NCBI RefSeq assembly: GCF_014204935.1
Contig: NZ_JACHMJ010000001.1
Location: forward strand, 1,736,001-1,800,000
Length of the DNA stretch: 64,000 nt
Reading direction: 5' to 3'
Source: Conyzicola lurida
GTDB taxonomy: Bacteria; Actinomycetota; Actinomycetes; Actinomycetales; Microbacteriaceae
In this document: positions 29,166-60,677 of the stretch, in pieces
Layout of the letters: every line of letters begins with the position of its first letter
How positions within the stretch are numbered: position 1 is the stretch's first letter
Notes under the pieces: generated by a model
Database searches by the model: none
Told to the model about the DNA's origin: nothing
Seen by the model: the letters and a program-made list of their open reading frames with translations, nothing else
Position numbers and translations under genes: made by a program

Positions 29166-29262
29166 GTGGAAATTCAGGAAGTCTGCGCACCAGGCGCCAG
29201 CGTGCACCCGGAATTGCGCCGCGCGTGATCGCGGCGGCCTACAGACTTCCTGAATTTCCGAC
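29166..29262. repeat. Palindromic intergenic element, copy B
   Basis: GTGGAAATTCAGGAAGTCT (from 29166) and AGACTTCCTGAATTTCCGAC (29243-29262) are near-perfect inverted arms around a ~58-bp core. The right arm overlaps the 3' end of the NUDIX gene and provides its last residues and stop codon. The element lies between that gene and the tRNA. Confidence 0.92.
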
Positions 29263-47381: not shown

Positions 47382-47490
47382 TTCGGAAATTCAGGAAGTC
47401 ATGGATGGCGCTGCCGGGCGAGCCGCGGAACCCCGCGGGTTCCGCGGCGTCGCGTCGCGGCATCCACCGCACTCTTCCTGAATTTCCGAA
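47382..47490. repeat. Palindromic intergenic element, copy C (long core)
   Basis: The arms TTCGGAAATTCAGGAAGT and CTTCCTGAATTTCCGAA flank a core with its own perfect hairpin, GCCGCGGAAC / GTTCCGCGGC, and an outer TGGATG / CATCCA pairing. The whole 109 bp can fold as one long stem. It lies between dgt and dnaG, genes transcribed in the same direction. Confidence 0.92.
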
Positions 47491-50521: not shown

Positions 50522-50617
50522 TCGGAAATTCAGGAAGTCCTGCTCCGCGCCGGGGCGTCGCCCGCACGATTCCGGGCCGCGCCCGCTGCTGCGCGGCCAG
50601 ACTTCCTGAATTTCCGA
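50522..50617. repeat. Palindromic intergenic element, copy D
   Basis: TCGGAAATTCAGGAAGTC and GACTTCCTGAATTTCCGA (18-bp perfect arms) with a GC-rich core containing GGCCGCG / CGCGGCC. It fills the gap between the convergent ybaK and UDP-glucose dehydrogenase genes and ends 4 bp before the latter's stop, so it could act as a bidirectional terminator. Confidence 0.93.
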
Positions 50618-50621
50618 TGGG

Positions 50622-52094
50622 TCAGCGCGGCTGCTGCGGTACCTGCCATACCTGCGCTGCCTGCGATGCCTGCCCTACCTGCGCAGGCTGCAGCTGCTGC
50701 GCAGGCTGCGCTACTCGCGCCACCGCCGGCACGGCCGCGGGGTGCGGCCCGGCCGGCAGCCCCAGCGCCCGGTACTCCCACCCGGCGGCGCGGTACCGGT
50801 CCGCGTCGAGGGCGTGCCGCCCGTCGACGACGTGCCGCGCCGCCACCAGCTCGCCGAGCGCGGCGGGGTCCGCGTCGCGGAACTCGTCCCACTCGGTCAG
50901 CAGCGCGACCACGCTCGCGCCGGTCACCGCCTCCGTGAGCGACGACGCGTAGTCGAGATCGGGGTAGGCGCGGTGTGCGTTCTCGGTCGCCTCCGGGTCG
51001 TAGACGCTGACGCTCGCGCCCTCGAGATAGAGCATCCGCGCCACGTCGAGCGCGGGCGCGTCGCGCACGTCGTCGGAGTTCGGCTTGAACGCCGCGCCGA
51101 GGGCCGCGACCCGCACGCCCTCGAGCGAGCCGCCCGCGAGTTCCCGCACGAGATCCACCGTGCGCACCCGCCGACGGATATTGATCGCGTCGACCTCCTC
51201 GAGGAACGCCACCGCCTGCCCGACCCCGAGCTCCGCCGCCCGGAACGTGAACGCCCGGATGTCCTTCGGCAGACACCCGCCGCCGAACCCGAGTCCCGGC
51301 TTGAGGAACCGCGGTCCGATGCGGTCGTCGTACCCGAGGGCCACGGCCAGCTGGTTCACGTCGGCCCCTGTCGCCTCGCACACCTCCGCCATCGCGTTGA
51401 TGTACGAGATCTTCGTCGCGAGGAACGAGTTCGCGGCGACCTTGACCAGTTCCGCGGTGGCCAGGTCGGAGACGACGAGCGGGGTGTCGTCGTCGAGGAT
51501 CGGCCGGAACGCCGCCCGCAGCTGCCCCTCCGCCCACTCCGACGAGACCCCGAACACCAGCCGGTCGGGGTGCAGCGTGTCGTCGACGGCGAAACCCTCG
51601 CGCAGGAACTCGGGGTTCCACGCCAGCTCGAGTTCGTCCCCGAGCGGCGATACCGCCTGCACCGCGGCCGTGATCCGCGACGCGGTGCCGATCGGGACGG
51701 TCGACTTGCCGACGAGCAACGCCTTCCGCGTCATCCGCCTCGCCAACTCGGTGAAAGCGGAATCGACGAAGCGCAGGTCGGCCGCGTTCGACCCGGGCAG
51801 CTGCGGGGTGCCGACACAGACGAAGTGGATGTCGCCGAACTCCGCCGCGCGGTCGAAGTCGGTGGTGAACCGCAGCCGCCCCGAGTCGAGCGCCTCGCGC
51901 AGCTTCTCGGGCAGCCCCGGCTCGAAGAACGGCGTGCGCCCCTCGGCCAGCGCCTCGATCTTGCCCTCGTCGACGTCGACGCCGAGCACGTCGAATCCGA
52001 GCGCCGCCATACACACGGCGTGCGTCGCGCCGAGGTAGCCCGTGCCGATCACGGTCATGCGCGGGTGGTCGACGATGGGTGCGCTGGTGGTCAT
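50622..52094 (-). CDS. UDP-glucose 6-dehydrogenase, last gene of a polysaccharide operon
   Basis: 490 residues from ATG 52094 (AGAAGGA at good spacing; ATG 52100 adds two residues). It oxidises UDP-glucose to UDP-glucuronate with NAD. Motifs: VIGTGYLGATH (17-22), FVCVGTPQLPGSN, GKSTVPIGTASRI, NPEFLREGFAVDD, and GFGGGCLPKDIRAF with catalytic Cys274. The C-terminal ~35 residues (PAVARVAQPAQQLQPAQVGQ then ASQAAQVWQVPQQPR) are an Ala/Gln repeat unlike the family. Same operon as the GT2 and beta-helix genes, so it likely feeds GlcA to that system. Confidence 0.95.
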   Translation of the reverse strand: MTTSAPIVDHPRMTVIGTGYLGATHAVCMAALGFDVLGVDVDEGKIEALAEGRTPFFEPGLPEKLREALDSGRLRFTTDFDRAAEFGDIHFVCVGTPQLPGSNAADLRFVDSAFTELARRMTRKALLVGKSTVPIGTASRITAAVQAVSPLGDELELAWNPEFLREGFAVDDTLHPDRLVFGVSSEWAEGQLRAAFRPILDDDTPLVVSDLATAELVKVAANSFLATKISYINAMAEVCEATGADVNQLAVALGYDDRIGPRFLKPGLGFGGGCLPKDIRAFTFRAAELGVGQAVAFLEEVDAINIRRRVRTVDLVRELAGGSLEGVRVAALGAAFKPNSDDVRDAPALDVARMLYLEGASVSVYDPEATENAHRAYPDLDYASSLTEAVTGASVVALLTEWDEFRDADPAALGELVAARHVVDGRHALDADRYRAAGWEYRALGLPAGPHPAAVPAVARVAQPAQQLQPAQVGQASQAAQVWQVPQQPR

Positions 52095-52148
52095 GGTCAT
52101 TCCTTCTCTCGGGTGAGCGGGATGCCGCGGCTGAGGCCGCGGCGGCGG

Positions 52149-53189
52149 TCAGTCCTGGCACTCGACGTTCGTGGTCCCCTCCGCCGCGCCGGTGGCCGTG
52201 TTCGAGCACTCGACGACGTTGTCCAGCTCGGGGGTCAGCGAATAGCCGAAGCCCGGACCGTCGACCGCGGCCTCGTTGTCGCGGAACACGTTGCCGGTGC
52301 CCCACCCGTCGAGGATCTCGTGCGTCTGGAAGCCGTCCTGCGGCGAGTTCGCGCCGGTGTTGCCCTCGATCAGCCAGTCGTTGCCCTTGACGTCGACCCA
52401 CGAGTCGGCGCCGGTGATCGCGGACCCGTCGAAGGTGTTGCCACGGACGATCCCGTCGGCGGTGCCCTCCTTGAGGTCGATGCTCTCCGAGGTGGTGTCG
52501 GCGATGTCGTTGCCCTCGACCAGGTTGCGGTCGCTCGCGTCGGGTTCGCAGTCGCTGATGTCGCACCAGTTGCTCTCGGCCGTGCCGACGTAGATGCCCT
52601 CGCCGAACTTGGCCTTGCGCAGCCCCGTGTCGCGGATCGTGTTGCCGACGACCCGGTTGTCGGTGCTGAAGTCGCGGAGGTGGATCGCCTCGTCGCCGGT
52701 CTGCGAGACGTGCAGCCCGCTGATCAGGGTGTTGGTCGTGGCGTCCGCCATGACGCCCTTCTGCCCGTTCTGCACCGAGAACCCGCTGAGCACCCAGTGG
52801 TCCACGCCGTCGAGGTGCAGCACGTAGCCCTTGCGCGTGCCTCCCCCGTCGAGCACAGCGTCCTCGGGACCGCAGAGGGTGATCGGCTCGTCGGCGGTGC
52901 CGTCGGTCTCCGCGGTGAAGCGGCCGGAGTAGGTTCCGGGCTCCAGCGCGATCACGTCGCCCGGCGCGGCATCCTCGAGGGCCCGCGTCAGTTGCTTTTT
53001 CGTCGACACGGTGACCGTCGGCGAATCGCAGTCGCCGTCCACCCGGGAGACCGTCTGGACCGCGTCATCCGGAGTACCGATCGTCGGCCCGGACGCGGGC
53101 GACGCGACGACCAGCGCGGTCGTGACTCCCCCGGCCAGGATGAGACCCGCGGCGGCGATCAGCACGCCTTTTCCTGAGTTTCCGAACAT
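52149..53189 (-). CDS. Exported right-handed beta-helix protein
   Basis: 346 residues from ATG 53189 (AGAGGTGA upstream); an ATGA overlap would allow a start at 53216. An N-terminal export signal GVLIAAAGLILAGGVTTALV precedes a parallel beta-helix with short repeats such as NRVVGNTIRDTGLRKAKFGE, NLVEGNDIADTTSESIDLKE and WLIEGNTGANSPQDG. Folds like this occur in polysaccharide lyases and C5-epimerases. Asp/Glu/Lys clusters on the DTGxxKAKFGEGIY coil could form an active site (inference). Third gene of the operon. Confidence 0.87.
   Translation of the reverse strand: MFGNSGKGVLIAAAGLILAGGVTTALVVASPASGPTIGTPDDAVQTVSRVDGDCDSPTVTVSTKKQLTRALEDAAPGDVIALEPGTYSGRFTAETDGTADEPITLCGPEDAVLDGGGTRKGYVLHLDGVDHWVLSGFSVQNGQKGVMADATTNTLISGLHVSQTGDEAIHLRDFSTDNRVVGNTIRDTGLRKAKFGEGIYVGTAESNWCDISDCEPDASDRNLVEGNDIADTTSESIDLKEGTADGIVRGNTFDGSAITGADSWVDVKGNDWLIEGNTGANSPQDGFQTHEILDGWGTGNVFRDNEAAVDGPGFGYSLTPELDNVVECSNTATGAAEGTTNVECQD
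53169..53185. repeat. Single half-arm of the palindromic family inside a gene start
   Basis: TTTTCCTGAGTTTCCGA resembles the right arm CTTCCTGAATTTCCGA with two differences, but there is no partner arm. It encodes GNSGK right after the start Met of the beta-helix protein, as the arm in the NUDIX gene encodes GNSGS. It may be an ancient remnant or chance. Confidence 0.4.
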
Positions 53190-53212
53190 GGTCGGCTCAC
53201 CTCTTCCGAGAG

Positions 53213-55084
53213 TCATTTCATCGATTCCCTGCTGACGAACCCGCGGGTGAAGGCCGAGATCGGCACGCGGTCAGCGTAGGGGTGGCGGATCGTCGCCGTC
53301 GACCGGCTGGCGCGGGTGGCGAGAGCGGTGCCGACCACGACGAGGGCGAGGAGGATCCAGACGATGGTGAGCGGCTGGAACACCGCGTTCACGACGGTCG
53401 CGACGGTGATCGCGGGGTGCCAGTCGGCCGTGTCGTTATGGGCGACCGTCCCGCCCTCGGAGTCCTCGGTGAAGATCGGGATGCTGCCGAAGCCGGCGAC
53501 GACGTTCGCGGTCACCGTCACGTCGCCCGCGTCGCCGACCAGGGTGACGCCGTGGTTGGAGACCCGGGAGACCGTGTTCCGCTCGACCGTCGCTCCCGCG
53601 TTGCGCACGTAGACGGCCGTGTCGCCGCCGGCGATGCTGTTGTCGACGACGGATGCCGCTCGGACGCCGTCCCGGATGGCGATCGACTGGCGCACCTGGT
53701 CGGTGAGCCTGTTGTCACTGATCGTCACGTCGCTCGCGTCGCCGTCGACGACGATGCCGCCGAGGTTGGCCGCGACCTCGTTGGTGCGGATCGACAGGTC
53801 GCTGCCGCCGCTCACCGCGATGCCGTAGCGCCCGTTGTGGCTGAACTCGCCGCGGGCGATCGTGCTGTCGCCGTAGTCGACGACCGCGGTGCCGGTCGCG
53901 CTCGGGCCCGCCGCGAGCGGACGGCCGTCGAGCGCGAGGCCGTCGCGCCCGTTGCCGGTGGCGGTGACCGCGGTGAACGCCACGTCGGTGCTCGACCGTG
54001 CCGCCCGGAATCCGTCGACGCCGTTGTCGCGGGATTCGGTGCGGACGATCGAGCTGTTCTCGACCGCGCGGTGGAAGACCACGCCGTCGACGAGGCTGTC
54101 GCTGATGCTCGAGTCGCGCAGCAGCACCCCGTGCGCGTTGGCGATGAAGACGCCGAACGCGTTGCCGCTGACCCGGAGGTTGTCGAGCCCCGCCGTCACG
54201 AGCGCGTCGGGGGTGGGTGAACCGGGCACGACGAGGGGTCCGGGAGGAAGGACCGGGGCACCGGTCGCCGTCGCAGCGGCCGACACGCTGTCGGGCGCGG
54301 GGTCGAGCAGCCCGTCGAACGTCGCCGCCTCGTCGGTGCCGGTGAGGGCGAGCCCCCCGGTGTTGCCGCTCCAGAAGCCGAGGTCGGAGACGTCTGCGTG
54401 CGAAACGGAAGCCCGGCCGCCGATCACCCGCACGTAGGCGCGGCCGTCGGTGGTCTGCGTATCGGGCGCTCCCGTGCTGCGGCTCCAGCTCGACAGCGAG
54501 ACGGGCGCGGTCTCGGTGCCGTCGACGACGAGCGAGCCGCCCGAGGTCACTATCGAGACGAAGAAGTCGGTGTCGCTCGCGAGGCGGATGTCGAGGCCGA
54601 CGCTCCCCTCCTCCGGGGCGAGGGCGAGGGTGGCGCCGCCGAGCACGACGATGTTCTCCGAGAGCAGGAAGAATCCGTCCGGGTCGCGTTGGAACGTGCC
54701 CGGGGCAAGGGCGGCGAGCTCCGGGGCGGAATACGGCTGCTCCCGGGGAGTCAGGACGAGCGTGTAGGTCGTCCCCGTCCGGACCCGGTACGGCGGAGTC
54801 GCGACGGTCGCGTCCCCGACCGCCGACGCCGAGACCCGGCGCACGTACGACAGCCGCTCCGACTCGGCCTCGACCAAAGCCGCCTCGGCCCGGGAGTCTC
54901 CCGGATACGCGCGCCCCGCCGCGACCGTCTCGGCGGCCGCGGTCGACGCGGCCATCGTGTCGGCCGCGTGCTCCCCCAGCAGCGACACCCGCACCACGAC
55001 GACCGACGCGAGTATGCCGACGAAGAGGCCGAACGCGATCCCGATCACCACCGGCTGCTTCGCCCCGGACTGCCGGCCGCTCAT
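53213..55084 (-). CDS. Large membrane-anchored NosD/beta-helix protein
   Basis: 623 residues from ATG 55084 (GGAGGTGGCGGC upstream). An N-terminal helix VVIGIAFGLFVGILASVVVV is followed by a coiled or helical linker, a beta-sandwich-like region (about 90-250), and right-handed beta-helix coils (about 290-560: NAFGVFIANAHGVLLRDSSI, GEFSHNGRYGIAVSGGSDLS, NEVAANLGGIVVDGDASD). A C-terminal helix FQPLTIVWILLALVVVGTAL then a basic tail. Two helices would hold the coils outside the membrane beside the synthase. It overlaps both neighbours (ATGA). Possible epimerase or processing factor for the polymer. Confidence 0.87.
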   Translation of the reverse strand: MSGRQSGAKQPVVIGIAFGLFVGILASVVVVRVSLLGEHAADTMAASTAAAETVAAGRAYPGDSRAEAALVEAESERLSYVRRVSASAVGDATVATPPYRVRTGTTYTLVLTPREQPYSAPELAALAPGTFQRDPDGFFLLSENIVVLGGATLALAPEEGSVGLDIRLASDTDFFVSIVTSGGSLVVDGTETAPVSLSSWSRSTGAPDTQTTDGRAYVRVIGGRASVSHADVSDLGFWSGNTGGLALTGTDEAATFDGLLDPAPDSVSAAATATGAPVLPPGPLVVPGSPTPDALVTAGLDNLRVSGNAFGVFIANAHGVLLRDSSISDSLVDGVVFHRAVENSSIVRTESRDNGVDGFRAARSSTDVAFTAVTATGNGRDGLALDGRPLAAGPSATGTAVVDYGDSTIARGEFSHNGRYGIAVSGGSDLSIRTNEVAANLGGIVVDGDASDVTISDNRLTDQVRQSIAIRDGVRAASVVDNSIAGGDTAVYVRNAGATVERNTVSRVSNHGVTLVGDAGDVTVTANVVAGFGSIPIFTEDSEGGTVAHNDTADWHPAITVATVVNAVFQPLTIVWILLALVVVGTALATRASRSTATIRHPYADRVPISAFTRGFVSRESMK

Positions 55085-56391
55085 GCCGCCACCTCCCGGG
55101 GACCGCCGAGGTCGTCGAGGTCGGATGCCGCGGCCGCCGTATCGACCGGTGCGAGGGTCGCGGCATCCTGCGCGTCGGCCCCCACCTGGTTGTCGTGCCG
55201 GGTCAGCCAGCCCTGCTTGTTCATCGTCACGAACGCGTACAGCTTCACGGGCAGCGCGACGAAGATCACGACGAGGGCGACGAGCGGGAGCAGCAGGATG
55301 TCGCCCGGGTTGCGGCGCAGATTCGAGATGCCCCGCAGCCCCCGCCCCAGCAGGAGCCACGCCGTCGCCGCCGTGATGCCGACGGCCGTGACATCCAGCC
55401 GGTTGAAAATCAGGTAGAACATGCTCAGGCCCATGGTCAGCGGCGTGATCAGGATCTGCAGCACCGTGATCTTCGCCACGAACGGAACCCGCCAGAGCCA
55501 GCCCTTCGCGATCGCGGTGAAGTAGCAGCGGTAGGAATTGCGGCTCCAGCGCACGCGCTGCTTGACGAACGCGCTGAACGTCGACGGGAACATCGACAGC
55601 GCCTTCGCCGACGACTGGTGCACGGTGCGCCATCCCGACGCCAGCACCAGCCAGGTGAGCCGGCCGTCGTCGCCCGAGATGCAGCGGCGGCCCATGAAGT
55701 ACTCGTTCTCGAGGTCGTCGAGCACGGGCAGCACGGCGTCGCGGCGGTAGACGGCGGTGCGCCCCGAGATGCACGGCACGGCTCCGGCGCGCCCCATCGC
55801 GGGCACGTAGTCGTAGTAGCGCAGGTTCACTAGCCAGTCGGCGATGCGGCGCCAGATGCTCGACCGGCGTTGGTAGACGTTCTGCTGCGTGCTCACCCCT
55901 CCGACGCGCGGGTCGGCGAAGGGCTTCTGCGCGTTGCGGAGGAGCCCCGGCGTCCACGACGTGTCCGAGTCGACGAGGAACAGAATGTCGGATGACGCCT
56001 CCCGGATGCCCGCCCCGAGCGCCGATCGCTTGCCGGCGTGGTGGAACAGCAGCGGGCGCACCCGGTCGTCCCCGAGCTCGGCGATCCGGTCGTATGTGTC
56101 GACGTCGGCGACATCCAGGACGATGATGATCTCGGTCGGGTCCTGCTCACGCCAGGTGTCGAGACAGCGCAGGAGGATCTCGGGGTCCTCGTGGAACGAC
56201 GGCACGACGACCGACGTCGTGCTGGCGAACCCGCTTTCGATCGGGCCGGCGAGGCGGGACGCGACGAAGCGGTAGAGCCAGAGCGCCCAGACGACGACGC
56301 CGGCGATGGCGACGGGCAGATACGGGCGTACCGCCCCGAACAGGTCGCCGAGATCGGCGAGCAGATACTGCAGTTCGTCGCTGAAGGTCAT
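55081..56391 (-). CDS. Processive family 2 glycosyltransferase (hyaluronan synthase/NodC-like)
   Basis: 436 residues from ATG 56391. After one N-terminal helix (LPVAIAGVVVWALWLYRFVA) comes the catalytic domain with all processive GT2 motifs: Asp93 in VLDVAD, DSD (141-143), ISGRTAVYRR, GDD (240-242, the TED position) and QRVRW (278-282). Four C-terminal helices follow. GDDGRLT...SGWRT and KQRVRWSRNSYR resemble hyaluronan synthase and NodC more than cellulose synthase. First gene of the operon that ends with UDP-glucose dehydrogenase, suggesting a GlcA-containing polymer extruded through the synthase. Confidence 0.93.
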   Translation of the reverse strand: MTFSDELQYLLADLGDLFGAVRPYLPVAIAGVVVWALWLYRFVASRLAGPIESGFASTTSVVVPSFHEDPEILLRCLDTWREQDPTEIIIVLDVADVDTYDRIAELGDDRVRPLLFHHAGKRSALGAGIREASSDILFLVDSDTSWTPGLLRNAQKPFADPRVGGVSTQQNVYQRRSSIWRRIADWLVNLRYYDYVPAMGRAGAVPCISGRTAVYRRDAVLPVLDDLENEYFMGRRCISGDDGRLTWLVLASGWRTVHQSSAKALSMFPSTFSAFVKQRVRWSRNSYRCYFTAIAKGWLWRVPFVAKITVLQILITPLTMGLSMFYLIFNRLDVTAVGITAATAWLLLGRGLRGISNLRRNPGDILLLPLVALVVIFVALPVKLYAFVTMNKQGWLTRHDNQVGADAQDAATLAPVDTAAAASDLDDLGGPREVAA

Positions 56392-58778: not shown

Positions 58779-58874
58779 TCGGAAATTCAGGAAGTCTGGC
58801 GCACAGCCGCCGCAGCAGACCCGGGTTTCCGCGACCCCGTAAACAGCAAACGCCGCCTCTTCCTGAATTTCCGA
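58779..58874. repeat. Palindromic intergenic element, copy F
   Basis: TCGGAAATTCAGGAAGTCT (from 58779) and CTTCCTGAATTTCCGA (ending 58874), 96 bp overall. It lies between the DUF559-like gene start and the glyS stop, both minus strand, so it is in the path of glyS read-through. Confidence 0.92.
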
Positions 58875-60592: not shown

Positions 60593-60677
60593 TCGGAAAT
60601 TCAGGAATTCACGACCGTGCCGCGCGCAACACGCCGCCGCATCGTGGTCGTGCCCCGCGTTCTTCCTGAATTTCCGA
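60593..60677. repeat. Palindromic intergenic element, copy G (tandem with H)
   Basis: TCGGAAATTCAGGAATTC and TTCTTCCTGAATTTCCGA arms, 85 bp, core with CACGACC / GGTCGTG pairing. Its left half and flanks closely match copy H, so the two arose by a ~127-bp tandem duplication. Confidence 0.92.

Follow-up and report, generated by a model that had tools for sequence, protein, structure and literature searches.

A recurrent actinobacterial operon that may encode a UDP-glucuronate-fed exopolysaccharide system with an AlgG-like beta-helix protein and a PL31-type lyase

Introduction

What would an actinobacterium build with a hyaluronan-synthase-type glycosyltransferase encoded beside two beta-helix proteins and a UDP-glucose dehydrogenase, and what would the two beta-helix proteins do to the product? 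This question is raised by four genes of Conyzicola lurida that lie in a 64,000-nucleotide stretch of DNA, hereafter called the window. A preliminary description of the locus compared it with alginate systems and supposed that the beta-helix proteins might epimerise, cut or tether a uronate-containing polymer. In this study, we propose, with a probability of about 0.7, that the operon encodes a synthase-dependent exopolysaccharide system which follows the logic of alginate biosynthesis in a Gram-positive form and is fed by UDP-glucuronate (UDP-GlcA). The biosynthesis genes of glucuronan were still unknown according to a 2023 study of a producer of this polymer (PMC10180729), and bacterial glucuronyl C5-epimerases were called "elusive" in a 2015 review (PMC4432689). 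The operon is a concrete candidate for both.

Results and Discussion

All four open reading frames lie on the minus strand where the preliminary description had placed them, and the range that it named covers the operon. Gene 1 (55081..56391) encodes a processive family 2 glycosyltransferase (GT2) of hyaluronan-synthase (HAS) type, 436 aa long and a predicted uronan synthase, and gene 2 (53213..55084) a membrane-anchored AlgG-like beta-helix protein of 623 aa from its ATG. They are followed by gene 3 (52149..53189), for an exported or anchored PL31-type polysaccharide lyase of 346 aa from its ATG, and gene 4 (50622..52100), for a predicted UDP-glucose 6-dehydrogenase (UGD) of 492 aa that would supply UDP-GlcA. 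The overlap noticed earlier between the first two genes is borne out, the GT2 stop and the gene 2 start sharing a few bases (GGCATGAGC). The intergenic gaps are 23 nt between genes 2 and 3 and 48 nt between genes 3 and 4, and an alternative ATG start of gene 3 at 53216 would overlap the gene 2 stop. Pfam returned GT2, Beta_helix (twice) and UDPG_MGDP_dh on the operon; a promoter and terminator scan found none, and an Rfam scan gave no match.

The neighbourhood survey that had been proposed for this locus shows that the gene order recurs far beyond chance. A scan of 84,980 genomes gave 257 GT2 relatives, and the best of these led to the 79 loci that were examined. Among these 79 loci of the best of 257 relatives, the exact order GT2, beta-helix, PL31, UGD stands on one strand in 51 and, with extra copies, in nine more, for a total of 60; GT2, beta-helix and PL31 without UGD in the run are found in 14, of which several are truncated by contig ends, and the full four-gene run is missing in 19, in some cases from contig ends. 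By their record labels the 60 four-gene loci belong to 12 families and 27 genera, 59 of them Actinomycetota and one Vibrio, the latter probably a mislabelled genome. The layout is shared widely among Actinomycetota, including many soil actinobacteria, and does not belong to one genome alone. At 1e-120 the GT2 profile was found in 4 of 396 genomes of a phylum-wide sample, and at 1e-60 in 19 of 199 genomes of the family; the operon thus has a wide distribution but occurs in few genomes. In these 199 family genomes, GT2 matches of at least 52% identity adjoin PL31 genes. The host genome itself holds a second complete copy (C1:1258713-1264456). As a separate observation, two loci labelled Vibrio cholerae 35D (L120) and Stenotrophomonas maltophilia P13 (L103) have GT2s that share 72-73 percent identity with the query, a level like that in actinobacteria, in DNA of 66 and 63 percent G+C, respectively; both assemblies are probably mislabelled or contaminated.

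The product of gene 1 matches Pfam Glyco_tranf_2_3 (3.4e-27), and its nearest solved proteins are hyaluronan synthases (5e-18 with the single sequence, 7e-27 with a profile). The motifs DSDT, GDDGRLT and QRVRW, which answer to those of the preliminary description, are present and conserved in 15 relatives, and the D, DxD, GDD and QxxRW signature of processive GT2s of HAS type is invariant in the alignment (A1). By these relatives and motifs gene 1 is a HAS-type GT2, at a large distance from the hyaluronan synthases; therefore, its donor specificity is not readable from similarity.

Gene 4 scores 409 bits against TIGR03026 (nucleotide sugar dehydrogenase; cutoff 189.8), which places it in that subfamily, and 314 bits against a UDP-glucose dehydrogenase (4a7p) versus 190 against GDP-mannose dehydrogenase, figures that measure similarity only. 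The most likely precursor, as judged from these comparisons, is UDP-GlcA. The host genome has three matches to this UGD as query, each adjoining a HAS-type GT2. One of them belongs to a third GT2-UGD operon (L011, G000:C1:1676323-1681026), in which a GH26-like protein lies between GT2 and UGD and replaces both beta-helix genes. Together, the three UGD matches beside HAS-type GT2s and this GH26-like protein suggest a genome-wide pattern of synthase, depolymerase and UGD.

The preliminary description called the product of gene 3 an exported beta-helix protein and left it unassigned; it is a relative of the PL31 lyases. PsAly is an alginate lyase of family PL31 from Paenibacillus sp. FPU-7, and this sole solved PL31 enzyme prefers polymannuronate. 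Against its structure (6kfn), a search of solved structures with phmmer aligned gene 3 at 8e-47 over 253 residues, and the gene 3 model (pLDDT 91) fits it at Z 42.1 and 1.7 A over 285 residues, well above every other structure. Numbered by the ORF translation, Lys241 (52470..52472, minus strand) and Tyr201 (52590..52592, minus strand) of gene 3 align, with codons checked, with the catalytic base Lys221 and the catalytic acid Tyr184 of PsAly, and both are invariant in 55 sequences (A3). The first cation site is likewise intact, Glu198, Glu236 and Asp239 corresponding to PsAly Glu181, Glu216 and Asp219 and being invariant in A3. Itoh and colleagues identified residues of PsAly that are conserved or essential (PMC6796002); of these, K128, H154, R156, E181, Y184, E216, D219, K221, D250, K252, Q276 and H278 are identical in gene 3. 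Asp188, Lys191 and Tyr195 of PsAly are absent from it, and changing these three lowers activity without abolishing it (PMC6796002). Gene 3 is thus a PL31 relative with intact catalytic residues and a predicted lyase. It shares with PsAly the fold and the catalytic and first cation-site residues, but PsAly is encoded beside chitinases, whereas gene 3 lies in a synthase operon and carries an N-terminal anchor or signal. The operon-linked PL31 proteins form nearly one group in the tree (6 label changes versus 22.7 when shuffled). A lone secreted PL31-type protein of 41 percent identity to gene 3 was also seen outside GT2 operons (L003, G000:C1:2213736-2214608).

A uronate must carry a substituent at O4 to enter the PL31 reaction, and the most likely precursor here is UDP-GlcA; we therefore expect the product to contain 4-linked glucuronate. 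It could be argued that the polymer is instead hyaluronan- or heparosan-like, composed of GlcA and a hexosamine rather than of uronate throughout, because the GT2 is nearest to hyaluronan synthases and NodC and the UGD adjoins it. The GT2 is, however, too far from HAS for its donor specificity to be read, and homopolymeric uronans are the substrates of those PL31 enzymes whose activity has been reported, among them the PL31-containing enzyme ClGP, which is reported, as cited in PMC13235733, to cut glucuronan and alginate. We regard a hexosamine-containing polymer as unlikely.

The role of the first beta-helix protein is less easily assigned. The AF2 model of gene 2 (pLDDT 85.7), in line with hydropathy, begins and ends with a helix of transmembrane type; the beta-helix in the middle is predicted to lie outside the membrane. 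Structure comparison, which had been suggested for both beta-helix proteins, gave AlgG (4nk6) as the top fold match of gene 2 with Z 35.1 and 2.2 A over 351 residues, followed by AlgE4 and AlgE6 (Z 30) and NosD (Z 28). A profile of 57 gene 2 homologues also ranked AlgG first (4e-7). The Pfam NosD matches, together with the NosD fold match, would allow both beta-helix proteins to be NosD-like accessories of copper or ABC transport whose association with GT2 and UGD is incidental. We consider this very improbable, given the higher Z for AlgG, the intact PL31 catalytic residues and a gene order in which they strictly co-occur with GT2 and UGD. Membership in NosD was set aside, with Z below that of AlgG and no NosFY context seen. 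Gene 2 is a diverged AlgG relative that may or may not be catalytic.

Whether it could epimerise depends on the alignment of the active site, and beta-helix registers are ambiguous. The register between gene 2 and AlgG was drawn transitively through homologues of gene 2 from three loci (L082, L083 and L084), each beside a sister GT2, that have the AlgG motif intact as YGFDPHDLSND. These DPHD-bearing homologues align with the gene 2 family by hhalign at probability 100 and E 8.7e-42, and with AlgG at 5e-22, DPHD falling on DPHD. In this register, and numbered by a translation that starts one codon before the ATG, His339 (54071..54073, minus strand) aligns with AlgG His319 and Arg364 (53996..53998, minus strand) with AlgG Arg345, with codons checked; we take these AlgG residues to be the catalytic His and the carboxylate-binding Arg. 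Core members of the family keep His339 in 89 of 92 and Arg364 in 91 of 92 sequences. In place of an intact DPHD motif, gene 2 has DGVVFHR, in which the His is kept and Asp, Pro and Asp are lost, and the core members have other residues where YGxDPHD has its Tyr, Asp, Pro and Asp. A direct register between P0003 and AlgG from hmmsearch, which puts R340 on AlgG R345 and loses the catalytic His, was rejected as a one-coil shift because the model gives the insert at 254-295 low confidence and less than a full coil, and because the intermediate family aligns gap-free at the motif.

These findings bear on two readings of the AlgG-like protein. It may be a true C5-epimerase, with His339 as the catalytic base and Arg364 neutralising the carboxylate as in AlgG, that would place L-iduronate in a GlcA polymer made by the same machine; this would sharpen the proposed exopolysaccharide system and is compatible with it. 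The AlgG fold, the near-invariance of His339 and Arg364, the register through the DPHD-bearing homologues and the set of conserved Arg, His and Tyr in the family all point this way. On the other side stand the four replaced motif residues (Tyr, Asp, Pro, Asp), whose loss makes epimerisation by gene 2 uncertain, and the AlgG equivalog NF038177 (curated cutoff 700 bits), which had no match in the host genome at E 0.001 and which gave no match with P0003 and 15.5 bits with P0006. We hold this possibility as tentative, somewhat short of an even chance. The other reading is that the protein is non-catalytic and serves as a tethered guide across the wall, shielding the nascent polyanion from the lyase. 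The loss of DPHD, the two membrane anchors, the cationic conserved residues and a conserved N-terminal helix, EAxLVxxEDxR, are consistent with such a guide, but the near-invariant His339 and Asp358 beside Arg364 hint at more than a binding role. A purely guiding role comes near to even odds without reaching them. The earlier suggestion that the beta-helix proteins could epimerise or cut the polymer is partly supported: a lyase relative with intact catalytic residues speaks for cutting, and for epimerisation the His and Arg are kept but the rest of DPHD is lost. The boldest extension, a widespread and hitherto undescribed actinobacterial uronan in which a diverged AlgG epimerises GlcA to L-iduronate, giving an iduronate-containing glucuronan with its own lyase, seems to us doubtful at present.

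Within the proposed exopolysaccharide system, UGD would convert UDP-glucose to UDP-GlcA. The HAS-type GT2 would polymerise GlcA, into pure glucuronan or in alternation with a second sugar, and would extrude the polymer through a membrane channel of its own. On leaving, the chain would pass beside the AlgG-like beta-helix with its two anchors; conserved Arg, His and Tyr of this protein probably bind the chain. The protein would thread and protect it, and may turn some GlcA residues into L-iduronate by inversion at C5, via His339 with Arg364. Outside, the PL31-type lyase would act by beta-elimination at 4-substituted uronates and may trim, release or clear the polymer, in a way comparable to AlgL and alginate. 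The most likely product is a 4-linked glucuronate polymer that the AlgG-like protein would guide or C5-epimerise at the membrane and that the lyase would trim. Counting against this picture are the replaced motif residues of the AlgG-like protein, the transitive register to AlgG, a UGD specificity judged by similarity, the preference of PsAly for polymannuronate and the 19 of 79 loci that lack the full run.

The comparison with alginate made at the outset was well founded, with gene 2 AlgG-like by fold and profile, gene 3 a lyase relative and the GT2 of HAS type. The Pseudomonas alginate operon likewise joins a dehydrogenase, a processive GT2, an AlgG-fold helix and a uronan lyase, and the present genes appear to match AlgD, Alg8, AlgG and AlgL in predicted function, with families that are partly unrelated. 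In Pseudomonas, AlgD is linked to GDP-mannuronate, whereas the operon studied here has a dehydrogenase that resembles UDP-glucose dehydrogenases more than AlgD, with a HAS-type GT2; a PL31-fold lyase stands in for AlgL, and a membrane-anchored AlgG-like protein with a degenerate motif for AlgG. The Pseudomonas system also has outer-membrane parts, while the conserved unit is without them. The HasA/HasB and pneumococcal type 3 capsule operons also pair a synthase, a processive GT2, with a UDP-glucose dehydrogenase in Gram-positive bacteria, but the present operon adds an AlgG-like helix and a predicted lyase helix, and its GT2 is distant. A search of mostly open-access literature found no description of this operon composition. 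Our results suggest that synthase, AlgG-like helix and uronan lyase are paired in Gram-positives too, where the role of the helix can be studied without the remaining Gram-negative apparatus, and the operon family supplies many candidate uronan lyases.

The three sister loci, whose GT2s are 50-52 percent identical to the query GT2, appear to be a different type of operon. They share a membrane-anchored beta-helix protein homologous to gene 2, and differ in the intact YGFDPHD and in TIG repeats on the GT2 (three IPT/TIG repeats in L083), both of which the operon studied here lacks while having a UGD. No UGD was detected near any of the three. In L082 a PL31 gene and the epimerase-like gene lie roughly 3 kb apart, and no PL31 gene was found in the 17 kb read at L083 and L084. 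By its motif, the AlgG homologue of these loci is a candidate for a true C5-epimerase of Actinobacteria.

Inverted-repeat elements of the form GGAAATTCAGGAAG...CTTCCTGAATTTCC were also seen at window positions 29168-29259, 47385-47487, 50524-50615, 58781-58872 and 60595-60675. Most have a length of 92 bp, their GC-rich interiors differ from one another, and they are nearly absent from relatives. Sampled GC skew and the initial 6 kb of the contig located neither oriC nor the terminus. The window holds 13 half-sites of the repeat against 0.06 expected, and of the 12 paired copies in the genome 11 lie within 1.728-1.957 Mb of the 3.64-Mb contig.
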